64,000 nucleotides of DNA from Parvularcula sp. IMCC14364 (GTDB lineage: Bacteria; Pseudomonadota; Alphaproteobacteria; Caulobacterales; Parvularculaceae): NCBI RefSeq assembly GCF_030758415.1, contig NZ_CP132334.1, positions 62,001 through 126,000 on the forward strand. The letters run 5' to 3'. The notes under the pieces were generated by a model. That model was not told where the DNA came from. It was given only the letters and a program-made list of their open reading frames with translations, and did no database searches. The stretch's first letter is position 1; each line of letters begins with the position of its first letter. A program made the position numbers and the translations under genes. Positions 3,664-55,175 of this stretch are shown piece by piece.

Positions 3664-4290
3664 ATGAAGTTTTCAGGTCTGCCCCGTAAAAAAATACTCA
3701 TGACAACCGCCATGGCGGCTTTGGCTACAGCGCTTGCGGGCGGTGCCACGGCGCAGGCTGATGATGTCAGTGCTGGTCAGACACCGACCGCGCAATATGA
3801 ATATAGCTCTTCTCTAGTGGCAGGCAGTCCTGATCAGAGCGATCCTGCAACCAGTGTGGTTGTGGATACAGGCTCAAGGTGGCTTGCTGTGACAGCCCTC
3901 TCGGGTTTGCTCGCCAGTGCTTTTACCTTGTTTGGCGCGAACAGACTGTTGCAGTTTTTCGCCAGTGCCGGAAACTGGCTGGGCAGCAGTACTAAGAAGG
4001 CTGCTTCTGCATCATGGTCCGCCACCAAGGCCACTGCCTCGGCGGCTGGCAGGGTCGGTGCGCGCGTATCCCGAAAGCCGATGCGGGTTCTGTTTCTGGT
4101 TGGAGGCCTGACGCTTTTCGCCCTCACCGGCATTGCCTGGTTTGATATTGAATGGCAGGCCGGATTATTGACCGGCGCCGGCGCGGCAAGCGCCGCAGCA
4201 TATGGGTTTGACCGGACGGGTAAGTTTGTCAGAAATCTCATGGCTAAAGTCCCCGGCAGGCGCAGGGCCGAGCAGGTGAAGCCGGCCTAA
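3664..4290 (+). CDS. hypothetical exported/membrane protein
   Basis: 208 residues with no family I recognise. Residues 1-33 look like a signal peptide (KK, then an Ala-rich core ending ATAQA-DD). Further hydrophobic stretches lie at about residues 78-102 (WLAVTALSGLLASAFTLFGANRLL) and 138-175. Between them is an Ala/Ser/Lys-rich amphipathic segment (SSTKKAASASWSATKATAS). The C-terminus is basic (KVPGRRRAEQVKPA), suggesting a cytosolic tail. It stands alone, with 260 bp of featureless sequence upstream. The start is the only ATG before the signal peptide. Confidence 0.65.
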   Translation: MKFSGLPRKKILMTTAMAALATALAGGATAQADDVSAGQTPTAQYEYSSSLVAGSPDQSDPATSVVVDTGSRWLAVTALSGLLASAFTLFGANRLLQFFASAGNWLGSSTKKAASASWSATKATASAAGRVGARVSRKPMRVLFLVGGLTLFALTGIAWFDIEWQAGLLTGAGAASAAAYGFDRTGKFVRNLMAKVPGRRRAEQVKPA

Positions 4291-4437
4291 TAGGCACGGC
4301 GTTTCAGCTTGGCACAGTTTTTCTGAGTAATATCAATGATTTGGGCAATTTTGACCACTCATGGCCCTAATTTGGCCGCAAAACCATTCCATATGATAGA
4401 CATGAACATGATGAGCCCCCCGATCATAAAACACACA

Positions 4438-4467
4438 GCCGGAACGTATCCCGGCCAAAATTTTTTA
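4438..4467 (+). terminator. weak hairpin with T-run
   Basis: GCCGG (4438-4442) pairs with CCGGC (4451-4455), followed by CAAAATTTTTTATG. It may terminate transcripts from the 3664-4290 gene. The stem is short. Confidence 0.35.
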
Positions 4468-4563
4468 TGTGCGCGCGCTCAAGATGGCCTTGATGGTCTC
4501 ATTCTCCAGGTTTCCAGATACTGATTTTTTTACGACTACCAACTTGCACCCCTCACCTTCTCA

Positions 4564-4591
4564 GCCCCCGCCACGTGCGGGGGCTTTTTTT
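4564..4591 (+). terminator. rho-independent terminator
   Basis: GCCCCCGC (4564-4571) pairs with GCGGGGGC (4577-4584) around CACGT and is followed by a run of T. It lies 80 bp upstream of the rpe ATG, so it ends a short upstream transcript or acts as an attenuator for rpe. Confidence 0.8.
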
Positions 4592-4673
4592 GGGAAAAAC
4601 GAAACATGGAATTCACGTATGAGAGGCCGTGCCAATGTTGCTTTTTGCAGGCGGCGCAGGATAAGAAAAACCT

Positions 4674-5339
4674 ATGTCTGTCCTGATTTCCCCTTCCATT
4701 CTTTCCGCAGATTTTGCCTGTCTCGGAGAAGAAGTGCGCGCTGTAGATGTTGCCGGTGCTGACATGATCCATGTTGATGTCATGGATGGTCATTTCGTCC
4801 CTAATCTGACGATTGGCCCAGCGGTGGTCAAGGCATTGCGCCCCCATTCTCAAAAGCCCTTCGACGTGCATCTGATGATTTCGCCCGTAGATGCTTACAT
4901 TCCTGATTTTGCCGAGGCAGGTGCGGACATCATCACCATCCACCCAGAAGCGGGGCCGCATTTGCACCGCTCCCTTCAACTGATCCGCTCTCTGGGCAAG
5001 AAAGCGGGCGTGGCGCTGAACCCGGCCACACCAGCGGAACTGATCGCACCGGTTTTGGACAGCATTGATCTGGTGCTGGTGATGAGTGTTAATCCGGGGT
5101 TCGGTGGGCAGAAATTTATCGACAGTCAGCTTGAAAAAATTCGTCAGCTGCGCGGCATGATTGATTGTAGTGGATATGATATCATGCTTGAAGTTGATGG
5201 CGGTGTGAATGCTGAAACAGTCCCCGGTGTCATTGCTGCCGGGGCAACAGCGCTTGTTGCTGGCAGCGCAGTGTTCAGGGGCGATCCCGGCGCGTATGCT
5301 GACAATATCCGTGCGCTGCGTGTCAACGGAGTGGCCTGA
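4674..5339 (+). CDS. rpe: ribulose-phosphate 3-epimerase
   Basis: A 221-residue TIM-barrel enzyme interconverting ribulose 5-phosphate and xylulose 5-phosphate in the pentose phosphate pathway. The family landmarks are complete. [10 protein letters not shown] is at the start; the metal and catalytic residues are in [12 protein letters not shown] (His and Asp) and [18 protein letters not shown] follows; and the second catalytic Asp is in EVDGGVN. VAGSAVF is the phosphate-binding loop. Length is normal. A GCAGGATAAGAAAA purine-rich stretch precedes the ATG. It is followed after 6 bp by the heparinase-like gene, a plausible operon. Confidence 0.97.
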
Positions 5340-5345
5340 GTGTAA

Positions 5346-7052
5346 ATGGCGAAATCCAGTCGAAAACAGACTCCCTATGCTGCGAATGTCAGTGCCAGAA
5401 AGCCCTGGCGACATTGGCATGACGGTCTGTTTTATGAACTGCAATTAAATGGCCCTGCGCCAGACCGTTTGACGTTCAATCTTGTAAATCCGTACAAGCC
5501 GGACACCACAGATGCAATAGAACTGCTGAAGCAGTATGAGAATGAGCAACTTCATATTTCATCTATCAGTCAGCATCAGGAGGGGTTTCTGACACCCTGG
5601 CGTGACCTCTGTTCTGAAGACCTCAAATATCGTCGGTATCATTCTTTTGCCTGGCTCGCTGGGATGGCCGCCGGGGGACAGTCCAGCTTGCCTGCTGCAA
5701 GAGCCATGGTTGATGGATGGCTGCATTATAACGAGAAGTACCAGCCAGAAACATGGCATCCACATCTGGTATGTGACCGGCTCTGGCATCTGGCCCGCGA
5801 TGGGCAATGGTTGATGCGCGGCGCAGAGGCCACCTGGCGCTCCCGCCTTTTATCCTCTATGGCGCGCCAGACGCGACACCTTGCCAAGGCCGTGGCACGG
5901 GTTGAGGAACCTGTCGAGCGATTGTTCAGTGCCATGACATTGATCCTGATGGGTTTGGCATTGCCGCATCATCGCACTTGCGAAGAGCAGGGCAGCACCC
6001 TTTTGCGTCGTGAATTGCGACTGCAATTAAGAGCGGACGGTGGTCACATCAGCCGCAATCCGTCGTTGCAGCTGCGCATTACATTATGCCTGCAGGATCT
6101 GATGAAGGCCTATCGGCTGTTGTCTCTGTCGGCACCGAATTTCCTGCATCACGCGGTGAGCCGGACAACCGACATGACGGAGTTTTTCCGCTGTGGCGAC
6201 GGCAGACTTGCTGTTTTCAATCAGGGAACAGAGGATGACCCGAAGGCGCTTGCAAGAGCGTTGTCCTTTGACAGTGTGGCCCGTAACCGGATTGATTTTG
6301 CCTCACAGTCAGGGTTCCAGCGTCTTTATGGCGCGCGTACCTATTTGTATGCTGACATTGGTGTGCCTGCAGCCAGTCCGGGCAGAGTCTCAAATGAGAT
6401 TGCTGATAGCGCAAAAGGGACATTCGCGATCCAGTTTTCTGCCGGTCGCCAGCGGATCATCACAAATTGTGGTTCTGCCAATGCGCTCGCAACGCCTGAT
6501 TCCGGCTTGTCGCTGGCTGAGTACCGGCAATGGCATGAAGCCCTTGCCGGGCCTGATGCCCATTCAGGCCTTTGTGTTGACGGCGTTGATACGCCTTTCT
6601 CCGGAACAGCACGTAACGGTGCAGGTGGAAATAGCTACCATCACCTGGAAGAAGATCGTCACGGACAACTCCTGGAGCTCGAGCGCACTGACGTGCCCGG
6701 CGCAACAGGCTGTACGCATCGACGGCGTCTTTTTCTGGGTATCGACGGGGATGATTTGCGCGGGGAAGATGTGCTGATCCCCCCAGGGGGGGAGAGCGCC
6801 CCCAAATGGCTGCTGCGGTTCCATTTATATCCCGGGATCAAGGCGTCGCTGTCGCGTGATCGACATACTGTGATCCTTGTCACTCCACAAAATGAAGGAT
6901 GGCGCTTTATAGCGGGTGACGCGATGATGGAGCTGGCACCCAGCATATATTGTGGTGTTGAGGGGCCGGTGCAGAAAATAGAACAGATTATCGTGAAACC
7001 GGCGCGCGCCAGAGGTGTTGTACAACAGGTTAAGTGGGCGCTGAAAAAGTGA
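5346..7052 (+). CDS. heparinase II/III family protein
   Basis: A 568-residue protein of the alphaproteobacterial heparinase II/III-like family. The N-terminal half is alpha-helical and toroid-like (about residues 60-290, with WHPHLVCDRLWHLARDG). The C-terminal half is beta-rich (about residues 320-560, with SYHHLEEDRHGQLLELER). Characterised relatives are uronate polysaccharide lyases. These cytosolic-looking members, which have no signal peptide, have no established substrate and are often found next to housekeeping genes. Here the gene lies 6 bp after rpe. The start ATG has no clear Shine-Dalgarno of its own, so coupling to rpe is likely. Confidence 0.85.
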   Translation: MAKSSRKQTPYAANVSARKPWRHWHDGLFYELQLNGPAPDRLTFNLVNPYKPDTTDAIELLKQYENEQLHISSISQHQEGFLTPWRDLCSEDLKYRRYHSFAWLAGMAAGGQSSLPAARAMVDGWLHYNEKYQPETWHPHLVCDRLWHLARDGQWLMRGAEATWRSRLLSSMARQTRHLAKAVARVEEPVERLFSAMTLILMGLALPHHRTCEEQGSTLLRRELRLQLRADGGHISRNPSLQLRITLCLQDLMKAYRLLSLSAPNFLHHAVSRTTDMTEFFRCGDGRLAVFNQGTEDDPKALARALSFDSVARNRIDFASQSGFQRLYGARTYLYADIGVPAASPGRVSNEIADSAKGTFAIQFSAGRQRIITNCGSANALATPDSGLSLAEYRQWHEALAGPDAHSGLCVDGVDTPFSGTARNGAGGNSYHHLEEDRHGQLLELERTDVPGATGCTHRRRLFLGIDGDDLRGEDVLIPPGGESAPKWLLRFHLYPGIKASLSRDRHTVILVTPQNEGWRFIAGDAMMELAPSIYCGVEGPVQKIEQIIVKPARARGVVQQVKWALKK

Positions 7053-7141
7053 CGGAATCATGAAACTGTTGCGTTCAACAGTATGGATATGTTGCGAACC
7101 TGTAATGGTCTGCTACTTTGGGCCCGACGAGGAGTAAATGC

Positions 7142-8413
7142 ATGTCAGCTGACATGAATAACGGACAACAGCACGGTTTCTGGGACAGGTTACGGGCGTT
7201 GCTGAATCCCAATGCGTCAATGGAGGCCCCCACTGAGATGGTCAGCCCCCGGCTTGCCCCTTGTGACTTGAGCGGGTTGCAAATGGATTCAACGCAGTTA
7301 TTGCGGCGCCCGCCACGGTCGATAGACCTTCATGCCGCCAGCACGTTGATGAGTGGTAAGCGAATTCTCATCACCGGCGCAGGGGGCACCATCGGCTCAG
7401 AGCTCGTGCGTCAGGCTGCTTCCTTCAAACCATCAAAGCTGGTTCTGGTGGATAATTCCGAGTTCAACCTCTATCAGATTGACATGGAAATGCGGGAGCT
7501 GGGTCTTGATGTGCCCGTGGAGGCCTATCTGGTCGATGTTTGTCGTCGCAATCACCTGACACGTCTTTTCGAGAATACGAAGCCGGAAATTGTTCTTCAT
7601 GCGGCTGCTTTCAAGCATGTACCTATTGTTGAGCAGAACCAGTCACCCGCTGCGTTGACCAATGTGCTTGGTGCCAAGAATGTTTTTGACGCATCGGTGG
7701 AATTCAAGTCCGAGGCTGTTGTGTTTATCTCCACTGATAAGGCCGTGAATCCGACGAGCTTTATGGGAGCAACCAAGCGCATTGCCGAACTCTATGCGCA
7801 GGCACTGGATGTCGCGCAAACTGACACGCGGTTTGTGACGGTGCGCTTTGGCAATGTTCTCGGCTCGACGGGATCAGTTGCGCCTCTGTTCGAGCGTCAG
7901 ATTGCTGCCGGCGGTCCTGTGACTGTGACCCACCCGGATATTTCGCGCTATTTCATGACCACGCGCGAGGCAGTGCAACTGGTGCTCCAGGCCGCCAGTC
8001 TCGACCATGGTCAACGCGGTGTCGTCACCCATGATGGGCGTATATTTGTACTCGACATGGGGGAGCCGATCCGCATCGTCGAACTGGCGAAACGAATGAT
8101 CGAAGCTCATGGCCTGAAACCGGATGAAGACATCAAAATCGAATTCACCGGCCTTCGGGCAGGGGAGAAGCTGTTCGAGGAAATTTTCCTTGATACAGAA
8201 AAGCTGATCAAGACCGGCGCTGACGGTGTTCTGTTGGCCTCGCCAACAATGATTGATCTGCCTTTGCTCAATCCGCGTTTTGCTGATGTGATCAGTTATG
8301 CCCAGAGCTGCGATGAAGTGAAACTAGCCGAAGCTGTTCACCATCTGGTGCCGGAATTTCGTGGGCCTTCTGCTGTTGCCGACATGGCGGCCTCACAAAC
8401 CGCTGCGGAATGA
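7142..8413 (+). CDS. CapD/FlaA1-type polysaccharide biosynthesis NAD(P) epimerase/dehydratase, short form
   Basis: A 423-residue extended short-chain dehydrogenase. The Rossmann motif is GAGGTIGSEL (about residue 80), then AAAFKHVPIVE and STDKAVNPTSFMGATKR with the catalytic Tyr replaced by Met, as in the C6-dehydratase/CapD group. RFGNVLGSTGSV and GLRAGEKLFEE follow. Relatives are 4,6-dehydratases acting on UDP-GlcNAc. Full-length CapD/WbpM proteins have four membrane helices and an extra Rossmann domain at the N-terminus. Here these are replaced by about 70 residues of unrelated sequence, so the product is probably soluble. I chose the ATG at 7142 because GAGGAG lies 7 bases upstream. It sits with galU and likely makes a precursor for surface glycan. 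Confidence 0.88.
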   Translation: MSADMNNGQQHGFWDRLRALLNPNASMEAPTEMVSPRLAPCDLSGLQMDSTQLLRRPPRSIDLHAASTLMSGKRILITGAGGTIGSELVRQAASFKPSKLVLVDNSEFNLYQIDMEMRELGLDVPVEAYLVDVCRRNHLTRLFENTKPEIVLHAAAFKHVPIVEQNQSPAALTNVLGAKNVFDASVEFKSEAVVFISTDKAVNPTSFMGATKRIAELYAQALDVAQTDTRFVTVRFGNVLGSTGSVAPLFERQIAAGGPVTVTHPDISRYFMTTREAVQLVLQAASLDHGQRGVVTHDGRIFVLDMGEPIRIVELAKRMIEAHGLKPDEDIKIEFTGLRAGEKLFEEIFLDTEKLIKTGADGVLLASPTMIDLPLLNPRFADVISYAQSCDEVKLAEAVHHLVPEFRGPSAVADMAASQTAAE

Positions 8414-52184: not shown

Positions 52185-52205
52185 AACCGGATTGGGGTGT
52201 TGCAG

Positions 52206-53477
52206 ATGAAAAAACTTGTTGCGGGTGGGTTGGCCCTGCTGCTGGCCGCGTGCGGGGGCAGTGATGAAGCGGCCCCGACACTGGAAGAGCGTCTGCAAAA
52301 ACCGGAAGGGTCTCTGCGAATTGCAACATTCAACGTCTCTTTGTACCGGGACGAAGAAGGGCAACTGGTGGAAGACATGATGCGCGGTGATGATCCGCAA
52401 ATTCAGGCCATTGCCGACATCATCCTGAAAGTTGATCCCGATATTCTGGTGCTGAACGAGATTGACTGGCACCGGGACTTCATTCCGCTTGGCGTGTTTC
52501 GGGACAACTATCTGACATTGCCGGCCAACGAAGCGGGTATCAAGCCGCTCTCTTGGCCGTTCATAACAATGATTCCGTCAAATACCGGGCTTAATCCCGG
52601 CACGGTGGACTTTGACAATAATGGCCAGATCGTCACAGAGCCAGGCTCTGCCGCTTATGCCGGTGATTCATTTGGCTACGGCAAATTCACCGGACAATAT
52701 GGTATGGCTATCTTGTCCAAAAAGCGCATTCTTTCGGAATTTGGCCGCAGCTTCAAGCAGTTCAAATGGCGGGACATGCCAAACGACAAGATGCCTGCAG
52801 ATTATTACAGCGAGGAAGCGCGCGATATTTTCCGTCTTTCATCCAAGAACCATGTCGATATACCCGTGGCAGTTGGCAATCACGAACTACACCTTTTGAT
52901 GATGCACCCTACACCGCCAACCTTTGATGGTCCGGAAGACCGCAATGGACGCCGTAACCATGATGAAATCCGTTTCTTTGCAGATTATATTTCGCCGGAA
53001 AAAGCAGAGTATATTTACGATGATGCCTGGTTGAATACCGAGGGCGAAAAAGGCCGCAAAGGTGGCCTTGCAGAGAACACACGTTTTGTCATTCTGGGCG
53101 ATCTGAATGCAGACCCGAATGACGGAGACAGTGTGACCGGCGCTATCCAGCAGTTACTGGATCACCCGGCCATTATAGATGCAAAGCCCTCAAGTGATGG
53201 CGCCTGGACGGCTTCTGAGGTGCAGGGCGGCGCGAATGAGACACAAACCGGTCCGCATGAACTGGATACAGCAGACTTCCGGGATGATGGAAATAATGCT
53301 GCAGGTAATCTGCGTATTGACTACGTATTACCGTCGAAATACGGGCTCGATGTTGTGAACGCTGGTGTCTACTGGCCCGAACCTGACGAGGAAGGCTATG
53401 AGCTGGTTGGCCCGGGCTATCCCCCTGTCAGTTCCGACCACAGACTTGTCTGGGTTGATGTGATGGTGACGGACTGA
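52206..53477 (+). CDS. endonuclease/exonuclease/phosphatase family lipoprotein
   Basis: 423 residues. The N-terminus is a lipoprotein signal with lipobox LLAAC at about residues 13-17 (next residues GGSDE). The EEP fold follows: LRIATFNVSLYRD (strand with Asn), ILVLNEIDWHRD (catalytic Glu), FVILGDLNADPNDG (Asp-x-Asn) and a C-terminal VSSDHRLVWVDV (Asp-His pair), all required metal and catalytic residues. Extracellular relatives are nucleases or phosphoesterases. It likely sits on the outer membrane. The ATG at 52206 is preferred over a GTG at 52197. It follows trpS by 21 bp. Phosphate or nucleic acid scavenging is an inference. Confidence 0.88.
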   Translation: MKKLVAGGLALLLAACGGSDEAAPTLEERLQKPEGSLRIATFNVSLYRDEEGQLVEDMMRGDDPQIQAIADIILKVDPDILVLNEIDWHRDFIPLGVFRDNYLTLPANEAGIKPLSWPFITMIPSNTGLNPGTVDFDNNGQIVTEPGSAAYAGDSFGYGKFTGQYGMAILSKKRILSEFGRSFKQFKWRDMPNDKMPADYYSEEARDIFRLSSKNHVDIPVAVGNHELHLLMMHPTPPTFDGPEDRNGRRNHDEIRFFADYISPEKAEYIYDDAWLNTEGEKGRKGGLAENTRFVILGDLNADPNDGDSVTGAIQQLLDHPAIIDAKPSSDGAWTASEVQGGANETQTGPHELDTADFRDDGNNAAGNLRIDYVLPSKYGLDVVNAGVYWPEPDEEGYELVGPGYPPVSSDHRLVWVDVMVTD

Positions 53478-53674
53478 CGCCGCAGCCTGCAAAAGGTGAG
53501 GGCGTCTACTCATGTCTGGTGTGGATGATGCCGCTGGGTAAAAATCGCCGTCAGCCGGAATAAAGCCGATGCGCGAAACCGGGAACCAGAATGTCAAAGA
53601 GCCGCCAGCAGATTATCCACTGACAAAGTGAATATGGAACATAAAAAGAACAAAGTCAATCTTTTTTGTTTCAC

Positions 53675-53693
53675 GGTAGTGTCTCAGTTTGAA
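53675..53693 (+). repeat. left terminal inverted repeat
   Basis: GGTAGTGTCTCAGTTTGAA. It matches the reverse complement of 54171-54189 at 18 of 19 positions (T/A difference at position 6). Confidence 0.75.
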
Positions 53694-53776
53694 ATTGGAG
53701 CGCGGCTATTGGCCCATAGCCGCCATTCGAATGATTTGGTTAAATCTAGCAGATCGTCAATTCTACGGAGATGCTT

Positions 53777-54142
53777 ATGATTACGAATGCCTCCTTGTGG
53801 GGGCCCAAAACAGATCTCCAGAAAGTTGTAGAGATGCAACTTGCGGGCAAGTTAAAACTTCAATTTTTGGCCACCAAAACCGGGCAATTATCCGTTGAGC
53901 TTTCAGCGACTAGGGCTCCCGAACATTGGTCCGAGGTGGCCGATCGTTTAGATGAACTGAGGTGGATGCTTACAGATTTGGCACTAGGTAATGTAAATGT
54001 ATTGGTCGCAACGACCGTCGAGCGTAAACATTTGCCTGATGGCAGTTCGACCTGCGAGCCACTAATATTACCCGAAATCGCGATTGAAGCATTGGCAAAA
54101 CTTCCGGCAGATTTTGAGTTCGCAGTCGCGCACTCCGAATGA
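53777..54142 (+). CDS. hypothetical passenger protein of the 515-bp element
   Basis: 121 residues, no confident family. A GGAG sequence 6 bases before the ATG at 53777 supports this start. The sequence reads MITNASLWGPKTDLQKVVEM, then a central WSEVADRLDELRWMLTD helix and a C-terminal PEIAIEALAKLPADFEFAVA. The C-terminal half loosely recalls DUF4279-type immunity-like proteins (helix, strand pair, then a 'pe-l-alaxlpxdxxf' end), but I do not assert it. Codons end in A/T more often than in the flanking genes, consistent with import by the surrounding element. There is no signal peptide or membrane segment. Confidence 0.6.
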   Translation: MITNASLWGPKTDLQKVVEMQLAGKLKLQFLATKTGQLSVELSATRAPEHWSEVADRLDELRWMLTDLALGNVNVLVATTVERKHLPDGSSTCEPLILPEIAIEALAKLPADFEFAVAHSE

Positions 54143-54170
54143 CTGCTTTTGGCGACAAATTGTCATCGAA

Positions 54171-54189
54171 TTCAAACTGAGACTCTACC
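54171..54189 (-). repeat. right terminal inverted repeat
   Basis: TTCAAACTGAGACTCTACC on the + strand, reverse-complementary to the left end with one mismatch. It is directly followed by TGTTTCGC, the presumed target duplication copy. Confidence 0.75.
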
Positions 54190-54218
54190 TGTTTCGCTTC
54201 ATGTGATGCCACCGGAGA

Positions 54219-54362
54219 TCAGTCGTGACGGGCCTTTGCCGTAAGGGCAGCTTCTGTCACTTCCAGGATGACATTGCGGATAGAGACATATTTCCAGCGC
54301 GGGATAGTGATACCCGCCCCGCCAGTCGGCGTTTCGCCATAGATTTTTTCTGTTTCACGCAT
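54219..54362 (-). CDS. possible very small protein
   Basis: A 47-residue frame (MRETEKIYGETPTGGAGITI... ILEVTEAALTAKARHD) with a GGGA sequence 9-12 bases before the ATG. Composition is protein-like, but conservation cannot be judged. A plus-strand frame overlaps it. It lies between the 515-bp element and gpmA. Confidence 0.3.
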   Translation of the reverse strand: MRETEKIYGETPTGGAGITIPRWKYVSIRNVILEVTEAALTAKARHD

Positions 54363-54449
54363 GACTTTCTTTCCCTGACTTTCTTGCCATGGCTGGCCAC
54401 AAAGCCGGATATGATCTAGCACCTTGCTTGAAATTGACGGAGAGACTTT

Positions 54450-55175
54450 ATGACGTATCTAGCACTGATCCGCCACGGGCAGAGCGAATGGAACCTGCAG
54501 AACCGTTTCACCGGGTGGGTGGATGTTGCCCTGACCGACGAAGGGCGCGCGCAGGCAAGCAGCACGGGCAGATTGCTCAAGGAAACAGGCATTCCTTTTG
54601 AAGCCGCCTATACGTCAGTTCTGACAAGGGCAATTCTGACTCTCAACCTTGCGCTTGAGGAAATGGATCAGCTCTGGCTGCCGGTCACCAAGGACTGGCG
54701 ACTGAATGAGCGCCATTATGGCGGACTGACAGGGCTGAACAAGGCGGAGACGGCAGACAAGCACGGTGAGGCACAGGTGAAAATCTGGCGGCGCTCCTAT
54801 GATATCCCGCCGCCAACGCTCGACGACCCATCAGATTTTCCATCGCTGACGGACGGGCGTTATGCTGACGATATTGAGACGCCGGTGACGGAGTCGCTCA
54901 AAACCACGCTCGACCGGGTGCAGCCTTATTGGGAAAGCGACATTGCCCCGCGGGTAACAGGCGGCGAGAACCTGTTGATTGCGGCGCATGGCAATTCCTT
55001 GCGGGCGCTTGTGAAGCTGTTGTTTGAGGTGAGTGATGACGAGATCGTCGGGGTGGAAATTCCCACCGGCAATCCCCTGTTGATCGAACTCGAAGATGGC
55101 ACGTTGAAGGTAAAATCAGCCCGTTATCTCGATACGGCGCGTGCCACGGCGTTGCCGCCTGTGCCTGCTGCCTGA
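54450..55175 (+). CDS. gpmA: 2,3-bisphosphoglycerate-dependent phosphoglycerate mutase
   Basis: A 241-residue glycolytic enzyme interconverting 3- and 2-phosphoglycerate. The phospho-His is in [19 protein letters not shown] (His9). [15 protein letters not shown] follows, then [23 protein letters not shown] (Glu acid and Gly-rich loop), [10 protein letters not shown], and the second His in [29 protein letters not shown] stretch precedes the ATG. Length is normal for the dPGM class. Confidence 0.97.

Follow-up and report, generated by a model that had tools for sequence, protein, structure and literature searches.

A 515-bp gene-bearing element with inverted ends in Parvularcula sp. IMCC14364, probably a mobile insertion cassette belonging to a group of IS1-like transposons

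INTRODUCTION

In the genome of Parvularcula sp. IMCC14364, a 515-bp segment with the outline of a transposon holds a gene and no transposase. What kind of element is this segment, here called E1, and how could it have reached its place? A preliminary description, made from the DNA letters and a list of open reading frames (ORFs), had called it a passenger-carrying nonautonomous transposon and had raised the idea of a gene-capturing element family. We followed up this proposal computationally. The stretch analyzed, referred to as the window, comprises 64 kb and corresponds to positions 62001-126000 of a single-contig 3.42-Mb genome. Coordinates are collected in Table 1.

RESULTS

Structure of E1

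The 19-bp core end sequence GGTAGWGTCTCAGTTTGAA was searched in the 64-kb window with up to three mismatches. Two sites were found, 53675-53693 (+) and 54171-54189 (-), which face inwards. In the shuffle control, the mean was 0.01 sites, and two sites were present in 0 of 100 shuffles. The two ends of E1 are identical at 18 of 19 positions, and the flanking octamers TGTTTCAC and TGTTTCGC match at 7 of 8. The inverted similarity continues weakly to approximately base 58 (equal scores in 2 of 2000 shuffles and in 0 of 1000 interior pieces), indicating that the ends are longer than 19 bp. The left end also contains the near-palindrome CGGCTAT-TGGCCC-ATAGCCG (window 53703-53722), of which the sister elements keep only a part.

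The GC content of E1 is 0.47 versus 0.543 in the window. According to the ORF listing and the catalogue scan described below, a transposase gene is absent inside E1 and a passenger ORF is present, which is the arrangement of a mobile insertion cassette (MIC). A MITE is short and has no coding capacity; E1 differs from this in its coding-like 121-aa ORF. These data confirmed the preliminary description in its structural claims, namely the inverted ends with an 8-bp target duplication at this position, the lower GC content of the interior, and the lack of a transposase.

Table 1. Positions of E1, its parts, and its neighbors in the window, and of related elements in the host genome
Feature	Position	Strand	Basis or remarks
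E1 element, 515 bp	window 53675..54189		Inverted ends and target duplication; sisters with same ends
E1 left target duplication copy, 8 bp, TGTTTCAC	window 53667..53674	+	7/8 identical to right copy
E1 right target duplication copy, 8 bp, TGTTTCGC	window 54190..54197	+	Read from sequence
E1 left end module, 19-bp core plus at most ~36 bp common to E2, E3, E4, and E5	window 53675..53729	+	blastn, alignment
E1 right end module, 19-bp core plus at most ~35 bp common to E2, E3, and E5	window 54135..54189	-	blastn, alignment
GGAG, likely ribosome-binding site of E1 passenger	window 53767..53770	+	Read from sequence
E1 passenger gene, 121 aa; alternative ATG at 53771	window 53777..54142	+	Longest ORF, codon score
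Upstream host gene, 426 aa, endonuclease/exonuclease/phosphatase-like by eye	window 52197..53477	+	67.5% protein identity to G003, same place
Downstream host gene, phosphoglycerate-mutase-like by eye	window 54450..55175	+	In 6/6 genus genomes including the host
E2, 640 bp, 170-aa ORF	genome 786734-787373		Octamers CAGGAGAG/CAGGAGAG, 8/8
E3, 963 bp, 245-aa ORF	genome 2716135-2717097		Octamers ACCCTGTT/ACCCTGTT, 8/8
E4, single end, adjoining IS5-type transposase genes (named by eye)	genome 2648763
E5, 3095 bp, S41 peptidase and Trans_reg_C/TPR regulator	genome 2193816-2196910		Octamers GAAAAGTG/GAAAAGCG, 7/8
Relic of right end	genome ~237080

Sister elements in the host genome

Sequences related to the E1 ends are present at several other places of the host genome. 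The left end of E1 is 86-93% identical to those of E2 to E5 over 41-55 bp, and its right end is 87.5-91.5% identical to those of E2, E3, and E5 over 39-48 bp (blastn). The interiors of E1, E2, E3, and E5 gave a blastn match in none of the six pairs, and their passengers differ. Four elements of one genome thus have the same ends and unrelated interiors: passengers change, ends stay. Recurrence of the ends with different passengers, on which the preliminary description had made the family idea depend, was observed both here and in other genomes (see below).

Past base 19, the likeness between left and right ends is weak. Shuffles scoring as well numbered 2 of 2000 for E1, 16 for E2, 20 for E3, and 135 for E5, and for E5 this likeness is not clear. 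The E3 ORF has a poor codon score, which is below that of two other frames and was equaled by 105 of 2000 shuffles. The subterminal sequence of E1 was matched only in E2 to E5, in loci L179, L182, and L189, and in a relic in L025 (blastn).

A lone variant end, GGTAGTGGGTCAGTTTGAA, is located approximately 155 bp from E5 (host genome contig C1, 2193643-2193661, minus strand); a partner end for it was not found. The same variant bounds transposase-bearing elements in genomes G004 (L180) and G031 (L219).

Insertion site and relatives

In G003, a genome of the same genus, the two neighbor genes of E1 adjoin with approximately 384 bp between them and no element. The corresponding gap in the window is approximately 972 bp, or 449 bp when the element and one octamer are subtracted. 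Together, the two neighbors were found in one of five other genus genomes. The neighbors of E3 are also side by side in G003, and they are together in one of four genomes in which rpsD was found. E2 is absent at the rpsF-side site in G001: identity ends 8 bp before the insertion point and is followed by element-free sequence, and the gene beyond the site differs. Since the gene to the right of E2, which by eye is acetyltransferase-like, was found beside the site in none of the five genus genomes, the case for absence of E2 is one-sided.

A base-level empty site with a single octamer was seen in none of the five other genus genomes, the flanks of which are too diverged. The empty site foreseen in the preliminary description was therefore found in part: G003 keeps both neighbors without E1, and the single-octamer junction was not seen. 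Judged by gene order and not base by base, E1 appears to be absent from relatives.

Adjoining E1, a 67-aa ORF (window 54219-54422, minus strand) looks like the shortened remnant of a small gene that G001 retains in this position (L174), as does G003 (L176) when judged by eye.

Catalogue of elements with these ends

For a catalogue, 206 sequences (L020-L144, L179-L258, and part of the window) were scanned. Inverted pairs were accepted if 100-6500 bp apart, with at most six mismatches per end, at most two in the better end, and flanking octamers matching at 7/8 or better. Excluded were L001-L019 and L145-L178, which duplicated places already covered or were flank loci; one of them, L147 (a single end in G056), has no replacement. 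The scan yielded 75 distinct elements, all selected for a duplication of at least 7/8. Four are from the host genome, 29 from other genomes searched, and 42 from a wider contig set. In that set, the ends are present in at least 119 stretches, which is a minimum for their abundance outside the host's family. When the right flank was slid by 10 offsets as a control, 0 elements were obtained at each. The end itself is present in 23 of 62 genomes of the host's family (up to two mismatches) and in 39 of 385 genomes of the class (up to one mismatch).

The target duplications are perfect (8/8) in 61 elements and 7/8 in 14. A weak, symmetric sequence preference (roughly S-R-S-N-N-S-Y-S) is visible in the 61 perfect sites. 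Of the 75 elements, 39 contain a transposase span of 170 aa or more; these are 2125-4021 bp long and all have 8/8 duplications. None of these is as short as a plain IS, since each has at least 1243 bp beside the best transposase match. Three elements hold shorter transposase remnants and 33 hold none. The latter comprise 12 elements of 114-409 bp, which fit a MITE by size (eight without an ORF of 60 aa, four with one of 65-94 aa), 18 of 515-2016 bp, and three longer ones. Duplications of 7/8 were found in 14 of 36 elements without a full transposase versus 0 of 39 with one, which hints that cassettes may outlive their transposases.

L076, L251, and L256, which are from other genomes, form another trio with both ends in common and no shared interior. 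E1-like ends with nonmatching octamers, accompanied by AHSA1 and sulfotransferase genes, were seen at L179 (5/8) and L189 (fewer). The proposed gene-capturing element family is supported by the presence of these ends with different passengers throughout the catalogue.

Partner transposase

The transposase of the larger elements has approximately 300 aa; in an alignment of 13 copies, identity to the first one is 56-74%. Both transposases scanned with Pfam passed DDE_Tnp_IS1 (PF03400; 31.8 and 31.0 bits, cut-off 24.1). With the NCBIfam IS1 equivalog, all four scanned scored below the cut-off (54.8-71.1 bits versus 100). Among 19 plasmid records with a match to the transposase, the annotation reads "IS1 family transposase" in seven and "IS1 transposase" in one. 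By its profile scores, the partner transposase is of an IS1-like DDE group, below the formal IS1 cut-off. An IS1595 partner had been considered on account of the 8-bp duplication and was rejected. The IS1595 model PF12762 matched neither of two transposases and nothing in the host genome, and NF033547 gave 22.9 bits (cut-off 75) in one of four transposases and no match in the other three.

The host genome gave no match to this transposase at an E value of 0.1. At 1e-10, it was not found there either, and the same run detected it in 8 of 62 family genomes, which provides a positive control for the negative result. One of the eight belongs to the host's genus. All eight have the ends, which occur in 23 of the 62 genomes (chance 1.5e-4), and 15 of the 23 end-bearing genomes, some of them incomplete, have no transposase match.

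The 19-bp core of E1 matches transposase-bearing elements, for example those at L209, L223, and L220, and its subterminal part matches none of them. The preliminary description had suggested a search for an autonomous insertion sequence with the same ends, and transposase-bearing elements with the same core ends do exist. None of the autonomous elements found has the E1 subterminal sequence (blastn), and the idea of a close autonomous parent was dropped.

Passengers and cargo across the family

Of the 21 larger transposase-less elements, 12 have a single ORF of at least 80 aa, and 12, partly other ones, hold a protein with a Pfam match above the cut-off. The matches are RibD_C, methyltransferase, DUF4238, DUF2335, DUF2165, S41 peptidase with a regulator, UDG, GFA, DACNV, P63C, DUF1428, and, in L200, the three enzyme families given below. 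In the other nine, including E1, E2, and E3, the ORFs scanned gave no Pfam match above the cut-off. Only one pair of related passengers was detected among the 21, in L194 and L200. The L200 element (3669-8205, 4537 bp, duplication 8/8) has genes for an aminotransferase, a CDP-alcohol phosphatidyltransferase, and a nucleotidyltransferase and no transposase; our guess is that this is perhaps a phosphonolipid-type set.

The 39 transposase-bearing elements have 85 other ORFs of at least 100 aa, of which 68 were scanned. Matches among these were to Peptidase_M78 (10), P63C (9), RmrA (8), and PD-Lambda-2_B (3). A scan of 10 proteins detected RmrT, with which RmrA is paired, in two elements. In both (L118:2622-5879 and L237:2715-6508), it is accompanied by an RmrA-cluster protein, making a RosmerTA-type pair (PADLOC, blastp cluster). 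P63C-domain proteins (L078, L087, L136, L143, and others), for which blastp grouped 10 ORFs together, rank among the most frequent cargo of the transposase-bearing elements. Going by these matches, defence or toxin-antitoxin types recur frequently as cargo of the transposase-bearing elements, and the cassettes have mostly unrelated genes.

The presence of cargo beside the transposase in autonomous relatives bears on whether E1 could have arisen from one autonomous element by internal deletion, its ORF being leftover cargo and not a captured gene. Three of the 21 elements (L062, L142, and L204) hold proteins related to such cargo; on this ground, plain deletion is likely for some of these cassettes and would be as good an account as capture. 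The other 18 passenger sets have no relative among the 85 cargo ORFs. The E1 gene is absent from the other 74 elements, and E1, E2, E3, and E5 have unrelated interiors between the same ends. Their origin by deletion would require four different parents with the same extended ends, none of which was found. We therefore regard deletion as a rather unlikely origin of E1, and favor a cassette that acquired its gene.

The E1 passenger gene

The GGAG motif is located 6 bases upstream of the ATG of the 121-aa ORF. E1 also has ORFs of 69 and 80 aa, which overlap the 121-aa ORF in other frames. The GC content at the three codon positions of the passenger is 0.57/0.40/0.48, and its codon score is higher than that of the five other frames (5 of 2000 shuffles were as good).

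The protein was compared with Pfam, NCBIfam, and PADLOC, and nothing was above the cut-off (best Pfam score, 14.8 bits of 27). No relative was found in 384 other genomes of the class, in 72,556 plasmid records, in 50,697 phage records, or in IMG/VR, which was searched by short peptide patterns. PDB sequences gave nothing significant (best E value 0.13, 8a3k). The fold search gave no match at an E value of 0.001 or lower, and the single-sequence model (pLDDT 56.5) is too low to use, as is that of the E2 passenger (pLDDT 38.5, single sequence). The immunity-type likeness that had been noted for this protein found no support in the profile, PDB sequence, or fold searches, and an immunity or defence role was dropped. 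By eye, a likeness of the passenger to DUF4279-type proteins was noticed, on which we build nothing; that family is not listed in the profile search of the passenger at E values up to 10.

If the open frame had arisen by chance, E1 would be a MITE and its passenger no gene. The profile, genome, plasmid, phage, IMG/VR, and PDB searches, all without a relative, are in line with this, and an ORF at least as long as that of E1 is present in 21 of 2000 shuffled elements. The codon-position GC values, the top codon score of six frames, and the well-placed GGAG argue against it. We consider a chance frame improbable, and E1 probably encodes a real protein. Since the sister elements carry other genes, this protein is probably dispensable for movement. 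That the inverted ends and octamers are coincidence or part of conserved core DNA is practically negligible, given the shuffle counts, the slid-flank controls (0 in 10), the sisters with shared ends, and the syntenic G003 interval without the element.

DISCUSSION

We conclude, with a probability of roughly 0.87, that E1 belongs to the mobile insertion cassettes, within a group of IS1-like transposons, and that it would be moved in trans by a transposase made elsewhere. The ends, the duplication, and the sisters with different passengers all support the earlier view of a passenger-carrying nonautonomous transposon.

On this basis, two imperfect terminal inverted repeats, each with a 19-bp core weakly extended to approximately 55 bp, would enclose one gene in place of the transposase gene. 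A transposase from a related 2- to 4-kb element, located in an ancestor or on a transient replicon, would bind and cut the ends, and the unit would be inserted into an 8-bp staggered target, which is thereby duplicated. Passengers would be swapped and the ends kept, so that the ends would act as a reusable gene vehicle. A gene could enter either when the interior is replaced during repair of the transposition gap or when a gene between two end copies is captured by transposition. E1 itself may now be stranded and is possibly a fossil, because no matching transposase was found in the host genome and the duplication is 7/8, which it shares with other elements lacking a full transposase (14 of 36), as if many cassettes were old.

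Elements of MITE size, gene cassettes, and transposons with a transposase and often with defence-type genes are three layers that are generally treated as separate subjects; here, a single core end sequence is common to all of them. With this shared core end, there is a delimited set of elements in which the capture of genes by transposon ends can be tested. The short end sequence also lets others find such cassettes, the passengers of which are easily left as unplaced hypothetical genes. The ends may serve as a vehicle that moves single genes around. More tentatively, and at somewhat less than even odds, the ends could be an integrase-free counterpart of integron cassettes. In that case, the same pair of approximately 55-bp ends would repeatedly acquire unrelated host genes one by one (four together in at least one case), would remain functional with transposases that arrive and disappear on other replicons, and would spread small gene units through transposase-less genomes.

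The usual target duplication of IS1 is 9 bp, and that of the E1 family is 8 bp. The IS1-like group may already be catalogued in ISfinder. Titles and abstract openings, covering few subscription journals, contained no report of IS1-like cassettes of this kind. IS231 and MIC231 elements were reportedly called modular in the title of a 2004 paper.

The closest comparison is with MIC231 of IS231 (IS4 family) in Bacillus cereus, in which a passenger replaces the transposase between inverted repeats. MIC231 is described as mobilized in trans by the IS231A transposase, and trans mobilization was reported for MIC231A1 (PMC3913671). E1 is likewise a transposase-less unit with inverted repeats and a passenger gene. 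It differs in its IS1-like transposase group, its ends, and its hosts, and its own mobilization in trans is presumed. Unlike in the MIC231 case, its transposase-bearing relatives are themselves cargo-bearing elements of 2-4 kb; passenger-bearing ISs are known as tIS (PMC7986276), and toxin-antitoxin pairs have been reported as part of the transposition module of Tn3-family elements (PMC7157771). The qnrD and qnrS2 mic elements have a gene between inverted repeats and no transposase nearby, the qnrD mic being located on small plasmids with 24-bp repeats and 1,519 bp (PMC3913671). They are like E1 in layout and differ in carrying resistance genes. The Tn3-derived, nonautonomous TIMEs and TIME-COMP mobilize different core segments, and their authors propose a natural gene-capture system (PMC4133298). 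A complete TIME bounds TIME-COMP on both sides, whereas E1 is bounded by a single end module on each. Cassettes of this type are thus established for IS231, and comparable ones for relatives of Tn3; the elements described here appear to form a modular set that belongs to a different group of transposases.
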